Shown piece by piece: positions 1-62,203 of a stretch of 64,000 bases of DNA. A program made the translations under genes and the position numbers. The stretch's first letter is position 1. Every line of letters starts with the position of its first letter. Origin of the DNA: Acidobacteriota bacterium (GTDB taxonomy: Bacteria > Acidobacteriota > Terriglobia > Terriglobales > Acidobacteriaceae); the NCBI GenBank assembly GCA_031296115.1, contig JARLGI010000023.1:1-64000 (forward strand), given 5' to 3'. The notes below the pieces were generated by a model that was given only the letters and a program-made list of their open reading frames with translations, made no database searches and had not been told where the DNA came from.

Positions 1-2637
<2,637 letters not shown>

Positions 2638-2638
2638 T

Positions 2639-2673
2639 GGCTAGTTGCCAGCCGCGAGTTGCTAGCTGCTTTC
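2639..2673. repeat. Heptanucleotide-phased degenerate repeat (5 units)
   Basis: Five consecutive 7-mers in phase: ggctagt, tgccagc, cgcgagt, tgctagc, tgctttc. It fills the gap between the permease start and the stop of the GNAT gene, and the last unit overlaps that stop codon. See the other heptad tracts in this window. Confidence 0.6.
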
Positions 2674-12429: not shown

Positions 12430-12464
12430 AAGTTTCGAGTCTCGAGTTGTGAGTTTCAAGCTAA
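12430..12464. repeat. Heptanucleotide-phased repeat, AGTTTC class
   Basis: Five in-phase 7-mers: aagtttc, gagtctc, gagttgt, gagtttc, aagctaa. They lie in the 240-bp gap between mazG and the zinc-ribbon gene. The gap otherwise holds nothing recognisable apart from a second, weaker heptad run further on. Confidence 0.6.
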
Positions 12465-24166: not shown

Positions 24167-24353
24167 GTTCCATCCTCACGAATGTTGTCTTGATTTTAGC
24201 AGAGAGAAGCAGCAGTCAGGACCGTGCAGTGTGGGAAGTGCGGGCAGCATCAAACGCGAAACGCGCACCGCCCGATGCGCGCTTCCTGCTTAGGCAAACT
24301 TATGTATGCAGACCCCAGTCCGGAGATGAGAACTCTTCCTAGGTGTCGGTCAG

Positions 24354-26794: not shown

Positions 26795-26896
26795 AGGTAG
26801 TTTCGCGCCCCGCAAACTGTCCAATGCTCTCTGGATTCGTTGCGGCACGGCTTCGCAGCTGTCGGGCGATTGGGGTTCCTGTCATGAATGCCGTGC

Positions 26897-26929
26897 TGAC
26901 AACCGACAACTGGCCACTGACGACTGCTT

Positions 26930-54103: not shown

Positions 54104-54174
54104 GCCCAGCCCAGCTTTCTAGTCGCGCACGGTTGTGACATTGAGCAAAGAGCAGGTTGGCCTTGGAGCTACAC

Positions 54175-54202
54175 TTGGCCATTTTGGGATTACTTGTATA
54201 AT
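54175..54202 (+). promoter_or_regulatory. Promoter for the superinfection-immunity-like gene
   Basis: -35 TTGGCC (54175-54180), 16-nt spacer, -10 TATAAT (54197-54202). The start site would be near 54209, 70 nt before the ATG at 54279. It excludes the earlier start at 54135. Confidence 0.65.
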
Positions 54203-54278
54203 CGGCAGTTCTGTAGCCCATGGATACTATGGGTTGCCCTTCTATATAAAAAGCAGATATTCTCCGCACGTTGCCATC

Positions 54279-54560
54279 ATGCGGATCATTGCCACCTCGC
54301 TCGCCCAAGCCCTCGCCATCGTGCTCGGCGCTGAACTCTGCTGGTCCCTGTTCGTCTATTTCGTCGAGGCCTACCCCGATTTCGGGCCGCTGGCGGTCCT
54401 TTTGCTGTACCCTCTGCCCATCGGAGTGGCGGCGCTACGCAAACACAATGCCCTGCTGGACATCCTGATCGCCAACCTTTGGCTGGGCTGGACCGTAATC
54501 GGCTGGTTCGTGGTTCTGATCTGGGCCTGCAACTGGGATGTGGAACCGGCCGCCGAATGA
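54279..54560 (+). CDS. Superinfection-immunity-like small membrane protein
   Basis: A 93-residue membrane protein from ATG 54279. Three hydrophobic segments: ALAIVLGAELCWSLFVYFV, FGPLAVLLLYPLPIGVAAL, and NLWLGWTVIGWFVVLIWAC. The last one is the signature of the Imm_superinfect (PF14373-type) domain, N-x-x-L-G-W-T-x-x-G-W. Such genes occur in many bacterial chromosomes far from phages, and their real role is not known. A longer frame from 54135 crosses the promoter, so I reject it. No ribosome binding site is clear. It is not next to other phage genes in this window. Confidence 0.72.
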   Translation: MRIIATSLAQALAIVLGAELCWSLFVYFVEAYPDFGPLAVLLLYPLPIGVAALRKHNALLDILIANLWLGWTVIGWFVVLIWACNWDVEPAAE

Positions 54561-55023: not shown

Positions 55024-55060
55024 CCGACTCCTCGCTGCGCTCGTCGCTCAGGATGACAGA
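55024..55060. repeat. Dispersed GTCATC-CTGAGCG-type repeat fragment
   Basis: On the minus strand it reads TGTCATCCTGAGCGACGAG then CGCAGCGAGGAGTCGG. The same GTCATC...GAGCG...GAGGATC style recurs at 56266-56445. Such sequences are widely dispersed in soil bacterial genomes. Confidence 0.45.
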
Positions 55061-55139
55061 ACGGTTGTCACGTGCAACTCTGTGTAACTCTGCCCTTCAT
55101 CTTCTTGCGACTCCGCCCGGCCTGCGGCATCGAACATCC

Positions 55140-56135
55140 ATGGTTTCCCGCGCCCAGCCTTTGACTGACCAGGACCTGCGCGATCTGGGCTTCGGCGCGG
55201 TCGTCTCGCGCGAAAGCCAGCAGCGCCTGCTCAACCGCGACGGCAGCTTCAACGTGACACGCCGCGGCTTGAGCTTCTGGTCCTCGTTCAGCCTGTACCA
55301 CACCCTGCTCACCATGTCGTGGTGGCGGTTCGTGCTCTTCGGCGCCGGCTGGTACCTAGGCGCCAACCTCATCTTTGCCCTCATCTACGTGGCGCTGGGC
55401 CCCGATGCCCTGGTCACCACCACGCCTGCCCTGGCGGACCACACCTTCCTGCGCGCCTTCTTCTTCAGCGTCGAGACCGTGTCCACCATCGGTTATGGGA
55501 ACATCGTACCCACCACCGTTGCCGCCAATACCGTGGTCACCGTGGAGGCGCTGTTCGGCTTGATGGGCCTGGCGGTAGTCACCGGCTTTCTGTTTGCGCG
55601 CTTCTCGCGCCCGGTGGCCAAGGTGCTGTTCAGCCGGCACGCGGTGATTGCGCCCTACCGCGGCATCCAGGCCTTCGAGTTCCGCGTGGCCAACGCGCTC
55701 TCCAACGAGCTGATAGAAATTTCCTGCAAGCTGATGCTGAGCCGCTTTGAAGAAGTGGACGGCATCCGTACCCGCCGCTACTATCCCCTGGCGCTGGAGC
55801 GTGACAGCGTGGTGTTTCTGCCGCTCACCTGGACGGTGGTGCATCCCATCGACGAAACCAGCCCGCTGCGCGGCGAAACACCCGAGTCCTTGCGCGACTC
55901 GCTCGCCGAGTTCCTCGTCCTGCTGAAGGCCTTCGACGAGACGTTCTCTACCATTGTGCAGACCCGCACCTCCTATACGCCGGATGAGATTATTCCCGGC
56001 GCGCGCTTTGCCAGCGCCTTCATGACCGATGCCGCGGCGAGGTTTGCCGACGGCGCCGGCGCCGGCCAGAAGGTCTCGGTGGACATGCGCTTGTTCGATA
56101 AAATCGAGCCCGCTACCGAGCTATTAAATCGTTGA
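55140..56135 (+). CDS. KirBac-type inward-rectifier potassium channel
   Basis: A 331-residue bacterial Kir channel. Transmembrane 1 lies near residue 65 (MSWWRFVLFGAGWYLGANLIF), the pore helix and selectivity filter near residue 113 (VETVSTIGYGNIVP, with TIGYG), transmembrane 2 near residue 142 (ALFGLMGLAVVTGFLFARFS). The remainder is the cytoplasmic beta-rich domain (IQAFEFRVANALSNELIEI, RRYYPLALERDSVVFLPLTW), as in Kir channels. It would conduct K+ with the gradient under membrane potential. ATG 55140 is chosen because the 29 upstream residues are not Kir-like. It is in the same neighbourhood as a dead kdpC piece, so this strain may rely on other potassium routes. Confidence 0.92.
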   Translation: MVSRAQPLTDQDLRDLGFGAVVSRESQQRLLNRDGSFNVTRRGLSFWSSFSLYHTLLTMSWWRFVLFGAGWYLGANLIFALIYVALGPDALVTTTPALADHTFLRAFFFSVETVSTIGYGNIVPTTVAANTVVTVEALFGLMGLAVVTGFLFARFSRPVAKVLFSRHAVIAPYRGIQAFEFRVANALSNELIEISCKLMLSRFEEVDGIRTRRYYPLALERDSVVFLPLTWTVVHPIDETSPLRGETPESLRDSLAEFLVLLKAFDETFSTIVQTRTSYTPDEIIPGARFASAFMTDAAARFADGAGAGQKVSVDMRLFDKIEPATELLNR

Positions 56136-56170
56136 TTTCTTCCCCCCGCCACGTGCACAATGTCTCGGGC

Positions 56171-56268
56171 TCAAATTCGAGTTTCCGAATTCAGCTTCGA
56201 GTTTTTGAACTTCAGTTTCAAGTTTCGGGTTTCAAGTTTCCAGTTGTAACTTTCAAACTTTGGAGTTG
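56171..56268. repeat. Heptanucleotide-phased tract, 14 units, AGTTTC class
   Basis: Fourteen consecutive 7-mers keep strict phase over 98 bp: tcaaatt, cgagttt, ccgaatt, cagcttc, gagtttt, tgaactt, cagtttc, aagtttc, gggtttc, aagtttc, cagttgt, aactttc, aaacttt, ggagttg. The consensus is close to nAGTTTC, as in the tract at 12430-12464. It begins 36 bp after the KirBac stop. Between 56136 and 56520 the DNA holds this tract, the palindromic element and a second heptad run, and no gene. Confidence 0.75.
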
Positions 56269-56445
56269 TCATCACGAGCGCGGCGAAGGATCTGCTCTTG
56301 GAATTGTCATCACGAGCGAATCCGGTGTCCCCAGCGACGCGTCGTTTTTGCGCTCGCTGGGGTGGAGAAGCGAGGATCTGCTTTTGTGAGTCAACCGAAA
56401 CAGCAGATGCCTCGTGCCAAACCCAGGCGCTCGTCATGACAATTC
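56266..56445. repeat. Imperfect palindromic element with GTCATCACGAGCG copies
   Basis: Two direct copies of TTGTCATCACGAGCG (near 56266 and 56304) and an inverted one: GAATTGTCATCACGAGCG at 56301-56318 matches the complement of 56428-56445 at 17 of 18 bases. An inner hairpin CCCCAGCGA / TCGCTGGGG (56329-56337 and 56354-56362) and two outward GAGGATCTGCTTTT / CAGCAGATGCCTCG arms lie inside. The total inverted span from 56301 to 56445 is about 145 bp, like a MITE or BIME. Confidence 0.65.
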
Positions 56446-56461
56446 TTGAGAGCATTTGAAG

Positions 56462-56510
56462 AAGCAGCCTGAGTGCTGAGTGCTGAGCGCTAATTGCTAA
56501 TTGCTATTCT
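56462..56510. repeat. Heptanucleotide-phased tract, TAATTGC class
   Basis: Units agcagcc, tgagtgc, tgagtgc, tgagcgc, taattgc, taattgc, tattctg in 7-nt phase, ending at the ribosome binding site of the HdeD gene (GGAGG). Confidence 0.7.
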
Positions 56511-56520
56511 GGAGGAACAA

Positions 56521-57066
56521 ATGGCTGAAGCGGTTGTGAAAAGAGTCTCCACGTTCTCGATCGTGATCGCCGTCCTGATGATCATCCTCGGCTTCATCGC
56601 CATGCTGGCGCCGTGGGAGTTCGGCATCGTGATCGCGCTCATCATCGGATGGTCGGCCATCTTTAACGGCGTGGCGCAGATTGTCTATGGCATCCGTACC
56701 CATAGCGGCGCACACACCGTGCTGGAAGTCATCCTGGGGCTAGTTTACATCGTTGCCGGCGTCTATCTGCTCATGCACCCCGTCGGCGGACTGCTGGCGC
56801 TGACCCTGCTGCTGGCCTGCCTCCTGCTGGTCTATGGCGTGTTCGCGCTGGTGCTGGCCTTCCGCATGAAGCCGCTCCAGGGCTGGGGATGGGTGCTGTT
56901 CGATGCCATCATCACCATCCTGCTGGGAATTCTGATCTGGGCACACTGGCCCCTCAACTCGGAGTGGGTCGTGGGTACCCTGTTCGGGATCAGCATCCTG
57001 ATCTCCGGCATTACCCGCCTGATGATGTCGCTGGCGCTGCGGCGCGTCACCAGCGCGGTGGCGTGA
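56521..57066 (+). CDS. hdeD: HdeD-family acid-resistance membrane protein
   Basis: A 181-residue inner-membrane protein with about six hydrophobic helices (FSIVIAVLMIILGFIAML, IVIALIIGWSAIFNGVAQIVY, VILGLVYIVAGVYLLMHPV, LTLLLACLLLVYGVFALVLA, VLFDAIITILLGILIWAHW, TLFGISILISGITRLMM). In E. coli HdeD supports acid resistance at high cell density. GGAGG sits 6 nt before ATG 56521, just after a heptad tract. Its place next to KirBac, Usp and PPK2 fits a stress role. The last residues are RRVTSAVA. Family name is safe; physiological role in this organism is not tested. Confidence 0.88.
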   Translation: MAEAVVKRVSTFSIVIAVLMIILGFIAMLAPWEFGIVIALIIGWSAIFNGVAQIVYGIRTHSGAHTVLEVILGLVYIVAGVYLLMHPVGGLLALTLLLACLLLVYGVFALVLAFRMKPLQGWGWVLFDAIITILLGILIWAHWPLNSEWVVGTLFGISILISGITRLMMSLALRRVTSAVA

Positions 57067-62000: not shown

Positions 62001-62145
62001 GGGAGCGCAGAGCCGCCACTCGGTGGGGACGACGGTCTTCGGCGGCATGATCTTTTCGACCGTGCTGAACCTGTTCTTCATTCCCGTGCTGTACGTGATC
62101 GTGAAGTCGCTGACGGACAGGGAGAAGGCGGAGACGGGCGGTTAG
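59035..62145 (+). CDS. RND multidrug efflux pump, HAE1 (AcrB/MexB type)
   Basis: A 1036-residue inner-membrane proton-driven pump. The first segment MFADFFIKRPVFSTVTSLFI is typical, followed by QFPELAPPQISVNSFYTGA. The proton-relay aspartates are in GLVVDDAIVVIENIQRH of transmembrane 4, and transmembrane 10-11 has QIGLVMLIGLASKNAILIVE with a Lys. Two large periplasmic domains follow transmembranes 1 and 7. It ends DREKAETGG. GTG 59035 has GAGAGGG upstream. It is the second gene after the adaptor and would pump lipophilic compounds or drugs. Substrates cannot be predicted. The long antisense frame on the other strand is a GC-rich artefact. Confidence 0.95.
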   Translation: MFADFFIKRPVFSTVTSLFIVIAGAVCIPFLPIAQFPELAPPQISVNSFYTGANAQAVESSVTILLEEAINGVEGMRYMTSSSGNDGSSSITVVFELTRPLDIAAVDVQNRVSAVLGRLPNEVKNTGVTVNKVSTSFVMAAGFYSLNNRYDNEFISNYIDIYVKDALKRIKGVGDVDIFGERKYSMRLWLDPARLAARGLTASDVVQALSQQNVQIASGQVGAQPAAKNQMYQISVRALGRLTEVAQFNNIVLKPGSNGALVRLIDVGYAELGAEDYSARLRFNGYEGVGIGVTQLPTANALDVDKAVRAELARLSKRFPPGLEYQIAFDTTTFVGDSIREVLKTLAEAIFFVMLVMLIFLQDWRSTLIPAVAIPVSLVGTFAFIKLLGFSINTLTLFGIVLATGLVVDDAIVVIENIQRHMSQEHSDSHVAASVAMGEVTGAVVATSLVLVAVFVPVAFFPGTTGLLYKQFSLTIAFSIAISAFNSLTFTPSLSALLLRPESSHKNFFFRGVEHVIHRTTARYVVSAKRAMKFRYLILLVFFAGLATTYFVYKMVPTGFVPDEDQGWFMITVQAPQGASVEYTANAIRQVEAIVSREKDVIGAFSVVGFSFTGNGPNKAMVFLNLANIDQRKGEQHSAAAVVGRLRGPLMGLTDVQAFPFLPPAIAGVSSLGGFTFEVQDEGGNTVQQLFDVTQKLARDGSSNPVLSGLFSPFTANDPQFVVKIDREKARSMQVPIQQISDALQVYMGSAYVNDFDFNNRAYRVYVQADQPFRRKPNDIRNLYVRSDTGAMVPLDNVVDISEGTSPQVITHYNIFRSAEIDGSAAPGYSSGQAIAAMDALARKDLPAGFNYSWSGLSLEEIKSGGQSAMLFALGLLLVYLTLSAQYESFILPFIIMLAVPMAMLGALLAQLARGQLNDVYCQIGLVMLIGLASKNAILIVEFAEQLRHKGLSIKEAAVEAARIRLRPILMTSFAFILGVLPLVFASGAGAQSRHSVGTTVFGGMIFSTVLNLFFIPVLYVIVKSLTDREKAETGG

Positions 62146-62203
62146 CTATTGGTAGTTGGCAATTGGCAATTAGCAACTGGCCAGCAGCATTCAGCAATCA
62201 GAA
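62141..62203. repeat. Heptanucleotide-phased tract, 9 units, after RND pump
   Basis: Units gttagct, attggta, gttggca, attggca, attagca, actggcc, agcagca, ttcagca, atcagaa keep 7-nt phase over 63 bp, starting inside the pump stop codon. Confidence 0.7.

Follow-up and report, generated by a model that had tools for sequence, protein, structure and literature searches.

Outward-reading heptanucleotide arrays of changing unit type at gene edges in Acidobacteriaceae

The closest described precedent for tandem heptanucleotides at gene borders comes from Xanthomonas and Nostoc, where units of the form GGGNATC or GGGGA(C/T)T have been interpreted as quadruplex formers (Rehm et al. 2015, PMC4692102). 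Past the stop codon, which they may overlap, these repeats lie on the coding strand; ahead of the start codon they lie on the non-coding one. They occur as single arrays or inverted pairs, show a preference for four units, and vary strongly among close species (PMC4692102). Direct repeats of another heptamer, TAACTGA, are known from marine Beggiatoaceae, cyanobacteria and Bacteroidetes (MacGregor 2015, PMC4679880), and three heptanucleotides of the cyanobacterial STRR type occur in Calothrix, as cited in PMC4692102. The survey of Mrazek 2007, as cited in PMC4679880 and PMC4692102, found heptanucleotides to be the commonest long SSR unit in most genomes and ascribed them to polymerase slippage, which provides a precedent for slippage by 7 nt. 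Polymerase contact length, quadruplexes and regulation are among the causes that have been put forward.

The DNA analysed here, called the window, is a stretch of 64,000 nt corresponding to contig 82 of an acidobacterial genome (G000; 3.75 Mb, 125 contigs). A sequence-only reading of it had pointed to degenerate nAGTTTC heptamers between a KirBac and an HdeD gene, with cyanobacterial heptamer repeats as the nearest analogue. The analogy is relevant, the close precedent being the Xanthomonas and Nostoc repeats (PMC4692102). The KirBac-hdeD spacer, its neighbours and the other arrays of the window are as follows.

2636..2670, plus strand: array TAGTTGC CAGCCGC GAGTTGC TAGCTGC (plus-strand reading), taking up a short spacer flanked by two minus-strand genes
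12430..12464, plus strand: short array AAGTTTC GAGTCTC GAGTTGT GAGTTTC, with an nAGTTTC unit like that of the left arm
26896..26926, minus strand: array CAGTCGT CAGTGGC CAGTTGT CGGTTGT, 3 nt off the stop-codon edge of a minus-strand gene
55053..56135, plus strand: left neighbour, inward-rectifier KirBac-type potassium channel (Pfam PF17655/PF01007)
56171..56260, plus strand: left arm, degenerate (N)AGTTTC heptamers reading away from the KirBac gene, core 56214-56260
56263..56445, no strand assigned: palindromic interspersed element GTCATCACGAGCG...CGCTCGTCATGAC with core GTCATCNNGAGCGNNGCGAAGGATCTGC, between both arms
56469..56508, minus strand: right arm, heptamers lying upstream of hdeD, score 20.9
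56521..57066, plus strand: right neighbour, HdeD family (DUF308, by Pfam), ATG near 56521
62149..62181, plus strand: array TGGTAGT TGGCAAT TGGCAAT TAGCAAC, beginning 3 nt past a stop codon
63507..63551, minus strand: array GAGCAAC GAGCAAT TAGCGAC TAGCAAT TAGCGAT TAGCAAC, 7 nt off the stop-codon edge of a minus-strand gene

The left arm is a real, non-coding period-7 array, and the claim of a degenerate heptamer tract in this spacer was borne out: lag-7 identity over 56171-56268 amounted to 46 of 91 positions, against 24.6±4.5 after exact dinucleotide shuffling, and none of 1000 shuffles reached it. The tract is overlapped by no credible gene, begins 35 nt past the KirBac stop, and ends well short of hdeD. 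Its best lag-7 segment, 56214-56260, exceeded all 2000 shuffles made for segments, and among 98-nt windows across the 64 kb the tract ranked third at lag 7, behind those at 62137 and 63486. The strict register without phase slip that had been reported does not hold, since successive AGTTTC-like hexamers start at spacings of 7, 13, 7, 8, 6, 7, 7, 7, 7, 7, 8 and 7 nt, and the TRF alignment likewise requires an indel. From the 14 units counted over 98 bp, about 10 are convincing (56178-56247); positions 56171-56213 are weak, with no lag-7 segment of their own, and 56248-56268 are degenerate. The short relative at 12430-12464 is likewise genuine, with 0 of 2000 shuffles reaching its value. The sequence-only reading had overlooked the best array of the spacer, at 56469-56508, as well as those at 2636, 26896, 62149 and 63507. 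It had also overlooked the placement at ORF edges, the strand polarity, the inverted second arms and the Xanthomonas and Nostoc precedent.

The two arms of the KirBac-hdeD spacer differ in unit type, the right arm reading TAGCAAT TAGCAAT TAGCGCT CAGCACT CAGCACT away from hdeD, and a Shine-Dalgarno-like ggagga lies between this arm and the hdeD ATG. In the orthologous spacer of one congener (G001) the arrays are absent, and in that of another (G003) two AGTTTC arms flank a related palindromic element. The core of the element, GTCATCNNGAGCGNNGCGAAGGATCTGC, has 16 copies in the host genome at up to 3 mismatches, and copies related to 56263-56445 are inserted in spacers of the congener G002 that carry no heptamers. 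Elsewhere in the window, 24187-24291 is a weak lag-7 spacer segment of AAACGCG-type units, outside the YAGYNNY family described below, and 54135-54560, directly upstream of the KirBac gene, encodes a small membrane protein with an Imm_superinfect match (PF14373).

The autocorrelation check that had been proposed was run on spacers and coding DNA of five genomes. The array survey covered about 1.8 Mb: 845 kb of G000, 160-240 kb each of G005 and G026, about 200 kb of G002 and about 375 kb of G008. Two of these genomes, G002 and G008, are public MAGs (palsa_354 and palsa_340, respectively), both labelled Acidobacteriaceae. In all five, lags 7 and 14 were the sole peaks among non-triplet lags for local segments in spacers, while coding DNA gave essentially the triplet series alone, without a lag-7 peak. 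Lag-7 segments numbered 19, 84 and 26 per 100 kb of spacer in G000, G005 and G026, whose contigs were picked mostly by size, each with at least one AGTTTC hit; the rates of 140 and 100 in G002 and G008 are inflated because these genomes were sampled around AGTTTC hits. Lags 4, 5, 8, 10 and 11 gave at most about 10 per 100 kb. An intergenic heptamer family, as had been suspected, thus exists genome-wide. As all these genomes are draft MAGs, arrays may be collapsed in length.

With up to 1 mismatch allowed, AGTTTC triples occurred in 9 of 9 genomes from the genus, in 26 of 37 from the family and in 1 of 14 from a sister family, whereas a reversed-pattern control had almost no matches. One family member, G014, has scarce AGTTTC but is rich in heptamers of other kinds (66 per 100 kb), and in the sister-family genome G038 the lag-k analysis of spacers gave no specific 7-nt peak. 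The nAGTTTC unit is also present in scattered phyla. In another family of the class, locus L031 (G055:C4:77381-80400) bears long (GAGTTTC)n arrays without imperfections, each some 16 units in length, in a genome that has neither a Ku nor an RVT_1 match.

Arrays are not placed evenly within spacers. Compared with uniform placement within the same spacers, 89 of 227 arrays lay within 10 nt of a stop-codon edge where 28 were expected. Within 10 nt of a start edge there were 40 of 205 against 24 expected, a less certain excess, since start positions were taken from the longest ORF, which introduces a bias. Read outward from the nearest ORF edge, whatever the gene direction, units fit YAGYNNY, with A at position 2 in 88% and G at position 3 (after the AG phase was chosen). 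When the phase was chosen equally on both strands, 145 arrays favoured the outward strand and 22 the inward one, with 10 ties; at array-free gene edges, the same strand comparison was near-balanced (270:244 and 312:250). The idea that arrays provide the TAG stop codon was set aside, TAG being no more than mildly enriched (46/96 versus 471/1334). An outward YAGYNNY reading is possible for the arrays of the window, both arms of the KirBac-hdeD spacer included, except for the one at 2636, which lies a few nucleotides from both gene edges and therefore does not test the strand rule.

Outside the phylum, AGTTTC arrays of Gammaproteobacteria have an outward bias of 17:1, but Desulfonema reverses the polarity, with 1 outward and 8 inward arrays within 40 nt among all 15 Desulfonema loci, so that the outward rule is not universal. 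Long nAGTTTC arrays in opposite orientation are present in Desulfonema magnum (L193, L194, L198, L226, L246, L259). In these soil Acidobacteriaceae, arrays abut ORF edges, stop codons above all, and their units nearly always read YAGYNNY outward.

Among 160 array-bearing spacers, 106 have a single array and 54 have two or more. Paired arms are typically inverted, and share the same unit type in 30 of 40 typable pairs where 11 are expected by permutation. Such inverted arms are predicted to fold into strong stems. RNA-folding z-scores were weak, being based on crude shuffles, and arm complementarity with swapped-partner controls was used instead: in 13 of 116 spacers the arms aligned with their own complementary partner at a score of at least 40, against 1 when partners were swapped and 0 among 359 spacers without arrays. 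The order of the units is hardly mirrored (483 versus 441 of 560 positions after the best register had been picked). This argues that arms expand separately after sharing a type, and against one arm being copied whole onto the other. The interiors between arms are mostly single-copy in the surveyed DNA and mutually unrelated. A multi-copy element containing CACCACAGAGGCACAGAGA was seen in several spacers of G002 and G008 (L222, L305, L332).

The pair G002 and G008, with about 93% gene identity, allowed the turnover of arrays to be followed. In their orthologous spacers arrays were present in both genomes 18 times, in one 4 times and in neither 48 times. Between G000 and the more distant congeners G002, G005 and G008, no orthologous spacer had arrays in both and 19 had them in one only. 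Some of the arrays shared by G002 and G008 are identical, and several have switched unit type: AGGGGNT versus AGTGGNT in both arms of one spacer with unchanged boundaries, TAGTGGN versus CAGTAGN between conserved flanks in another, and CAGCNNT versus TAGCNNT in two spacers, where the interiors were replaced entirely. In three spacers with both arms readable, the type changed jointly in both arms. In one orthologous spacer the DNA between the arms is inverted; L307:8180-8337 against L332:13880-14219, with inverted DNA between AGTTTC/GAAACT arms, is a candidate invertible segment.

Mean unit identity was 0.77 inside an array; for orthologous arms it was 0.69, for the paired arms of one spacer 0.68, and for unrelated arms 0.53. 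Lag-7 mismatches within arrays were transitions in 55% of cases, versus 33% for unrelated bases, and 193 distinct heptamers were counted across arrays. A spacer of 20 nt in G000 measures 192 and 117 nt in G002 and G008, with different hairpins. Median identity was 0.61 for array spacers and 0.79 for other spacers of these genomes, which on small numbers is no clear sign of lower overall conservation. Arrays change far faster than genes, both in the type and number of their units and in the DNA that they enclose.

In the open-licence literature, we found no description of such arrays in Acidobacteria. They share all tested features of the Xanthomonas and Nostoc heptamers except the G-rich unit: a tandem 7-nt unit over-represented in non-coding DNA, placement at ORF edges with an outward strand rule, and occurrence as singles or inverted pairs that vary between close species. 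Unlike those, AGTTTC, AGTTG and AGC units without GGG predominate, a minor AGGGG type alone having G-runs, and several unit types coexist in one acidobacterial genome, switch between sister species, and enclose interiors that can invert. As most units lack G-runs, quadruplexes cannot be the common cause. With the TAACTGA repeats (PMC4679880) they share the intergenic position and, less certainly, nearness to start codons; further points of comparison are indels of 7 nt among strains and relatives whose spacers are shorter and free of repeats. Judging from that text, TAACTGA read outward would be TCAGTTA, which in the phase CAGTTAT matches YAGYNNY, so that the polarity appears to agree. However, TAACTGA is one fixed unit, nearly always direct (with one indirect set) and mainly upstream of starts. 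It is not found in the window, whose units are of AGTTTC and TAGCAAT/CAGCACT types, and the exact tandem 14-mers listed for G000 include none of its class. The STRR are alike by description, as cited, in being tandem heptamers of several types per genome. In the survey of Mrazek 2007, as far as it is cited, placement, polarity, inverted arms and degenerate units are not described.

REP sequences are built on a conserved palindromic unit of 20-40 bp. The arrays resemble REP, BIME and REPIN, with their RAYT, in being intergenic, hairpin-forming and of fast turnover, but have no shared unit, and RAYT is missing from one array-rich genome. A RAYT-driven REP system is ruled out for that genome, G008 (61 AGTTTC hits, 99% complete, no PF01797 match); the host G000 has 4 weak Y1_Tnp matches.

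The account we favour, with about even confidence for and against, is slippage-driven concerted evolution with occasional exchange across arms. Replication slippage by 7 nt would create and turn over arrays in little-constrained DNA, a variant unit would spread across its array, and most survivors would keep the AG anchor. Occasional exchange between arms, by fold-back or inverted-repeat recombination, would keep them alike and would also invert the DNA they enclose. Arrays would then be mainly mutational products, any hairpin effect, in RNA or DNA, being secondary at most. This agrees with the period of 7 alone, confined to spacers, and with the rewriting of arrays in place between conserved flanks. 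The shared unit type and complementarity of paired arms, the inverted interior, and the position at ORF edges are also counted in its favour. Unequal copying of a 7-mer, one of the origins suggested at the outset, likewise fits the higher identity within arrays than between orthologous ones (0.77 versus 0.69) and the transition bias. The outward polarity and the AG anchor do not follow from slippage alone, and for arms to switch type together, either exchange between them must be frequent or the entire element must be replaced. Also against it are the complete replacement of interiors in two spacers and the different types of the two arms in the window.

Several other explanations were weighed. 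Chance low complexity or an assembly artefact could be invoked for degenerate units in draft MAGs, but its probability is virtually nil: shuffles reached the array values in 0 of 1000-2000 cases, eight related congeners have 32-95 AGTTTC triples per genome against 0-1 for the reversed pattern, and the nAGTTTC unit is also found in complete isolate genomes such as those of Desulfonema magnum and Catenovulum sediminis. These controls rule it out. Foldback and Galileo are fold-back elements of Drosophila. If arrays were the terminal inverted repeats of a mobile element of this kind, intergenic insertion would set the AG strand inward from the element ends, and both polarity and inverted pairs would be accounted for. 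The spacer of 20 nt in G000 and 192/117 nt in G002/G008 looks like an empty and a filled site, though too diverged for exact boundaries, and so does the KirBac-HdeD spacer, array-free in G001 and with two arms and a palindrome in G003. We nevertheless consider such an element unlikely, since interiors are mostly unrelated single-copy DNA in the survey and ends share YAGYNNY alone, unit types are many and switch in place within conserved boundaries, two thirds of array-bearing spacers (106/160) have one array, and a Y1/RAYT transposase is missing from the array-rich, 99%-complete G008. It could also be that arrays are scars of repair, in which the 3' ends of a break point off the genes, a stuttering polymerase adds heptamers, and the ends are joined. 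Outward polarity at both start and stop edges in any gene direction is then predicted, as are one-armed cases and arms alike in type and hardly in unit order; between G000 and G002/G008 the old spacer, Shine-Dalgarno included, seems replaced. Such scars are distinctly unlikely as the source, because they leave in-place rewriting with intact flanks unexplained, and because Ku is missing from G029 and G055, which are rich in arrays, but present in the sister family, which is poor in them, so that end joining by Ku is not required and would not be enough. RVT_1 is also missing from five array-rich genomes that are 98-100% complete (G018, G026, G031, G033, G055). A telomerase-like reverse transcriptase of the DRT10 type, an idea taken from PMC12632851, has no support given these five genomes, although very divergent RTs could escape; the host G000 does have RVT_1 matches.

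A selected RNA function, with stem-loops or binding sites insulating neighbour genes and selection fixing polarity and position, would suit arrays that sit at stop and start edges and the strong stems predicted from inverted arms, and the Beggiatoaceae repeats just 5' of start codons were proposed to be regulatory (PMC4679880). We hold it very doubtful. Two-armed spacers have no preference for any gene direction, which counts against a promoter- or terminator-specific role; unit sequences vary by locus and species; presence is not conserved (0 shared versus 19 one-only between G000 and G002/G005/G008). The arms of the window coincide with no intrinsic terminator: the sole sense-strand Rho-independent candidate within 56050-56600 lies between them, at 56325-56340. 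An Rfam search gave no match near gathering score. In gene direction, Rfam and the window terminator, no selected function is supported. The earlier suggestion of selection for spacing fares no better, as nothing tested indicates helical phasing and other periods give no support to it, while protein-binding spacing is at odds with units that change between loci and sister species, unlike one fixed binding site. With 193 heptamers and unit switching, an array of a single binding site is ruled out.

What was already known from other bacteria is the placement, the strand rule and the inverted pairing; new are the non-G-rich, rapidly switching units, which remove quadruplexes as the common explanation of heptamer placement. 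One tentative and rather improbable proposal is that the ORF-edge heptamers of Xanthomonas, Nostoc, Beggiatoaceae and Terriglobales all reflect one unit-agnostic process writing 7-mers on gene-averted ends or strands, paired arms being hypervariable hairpins that edit spacers. If this were true, placement would not be due to quadruplex formation. The outward YAGYNNY rule is a constraint that any mechanism has to explain, and the fast rewriting in place between sister species makes the process open to testing.
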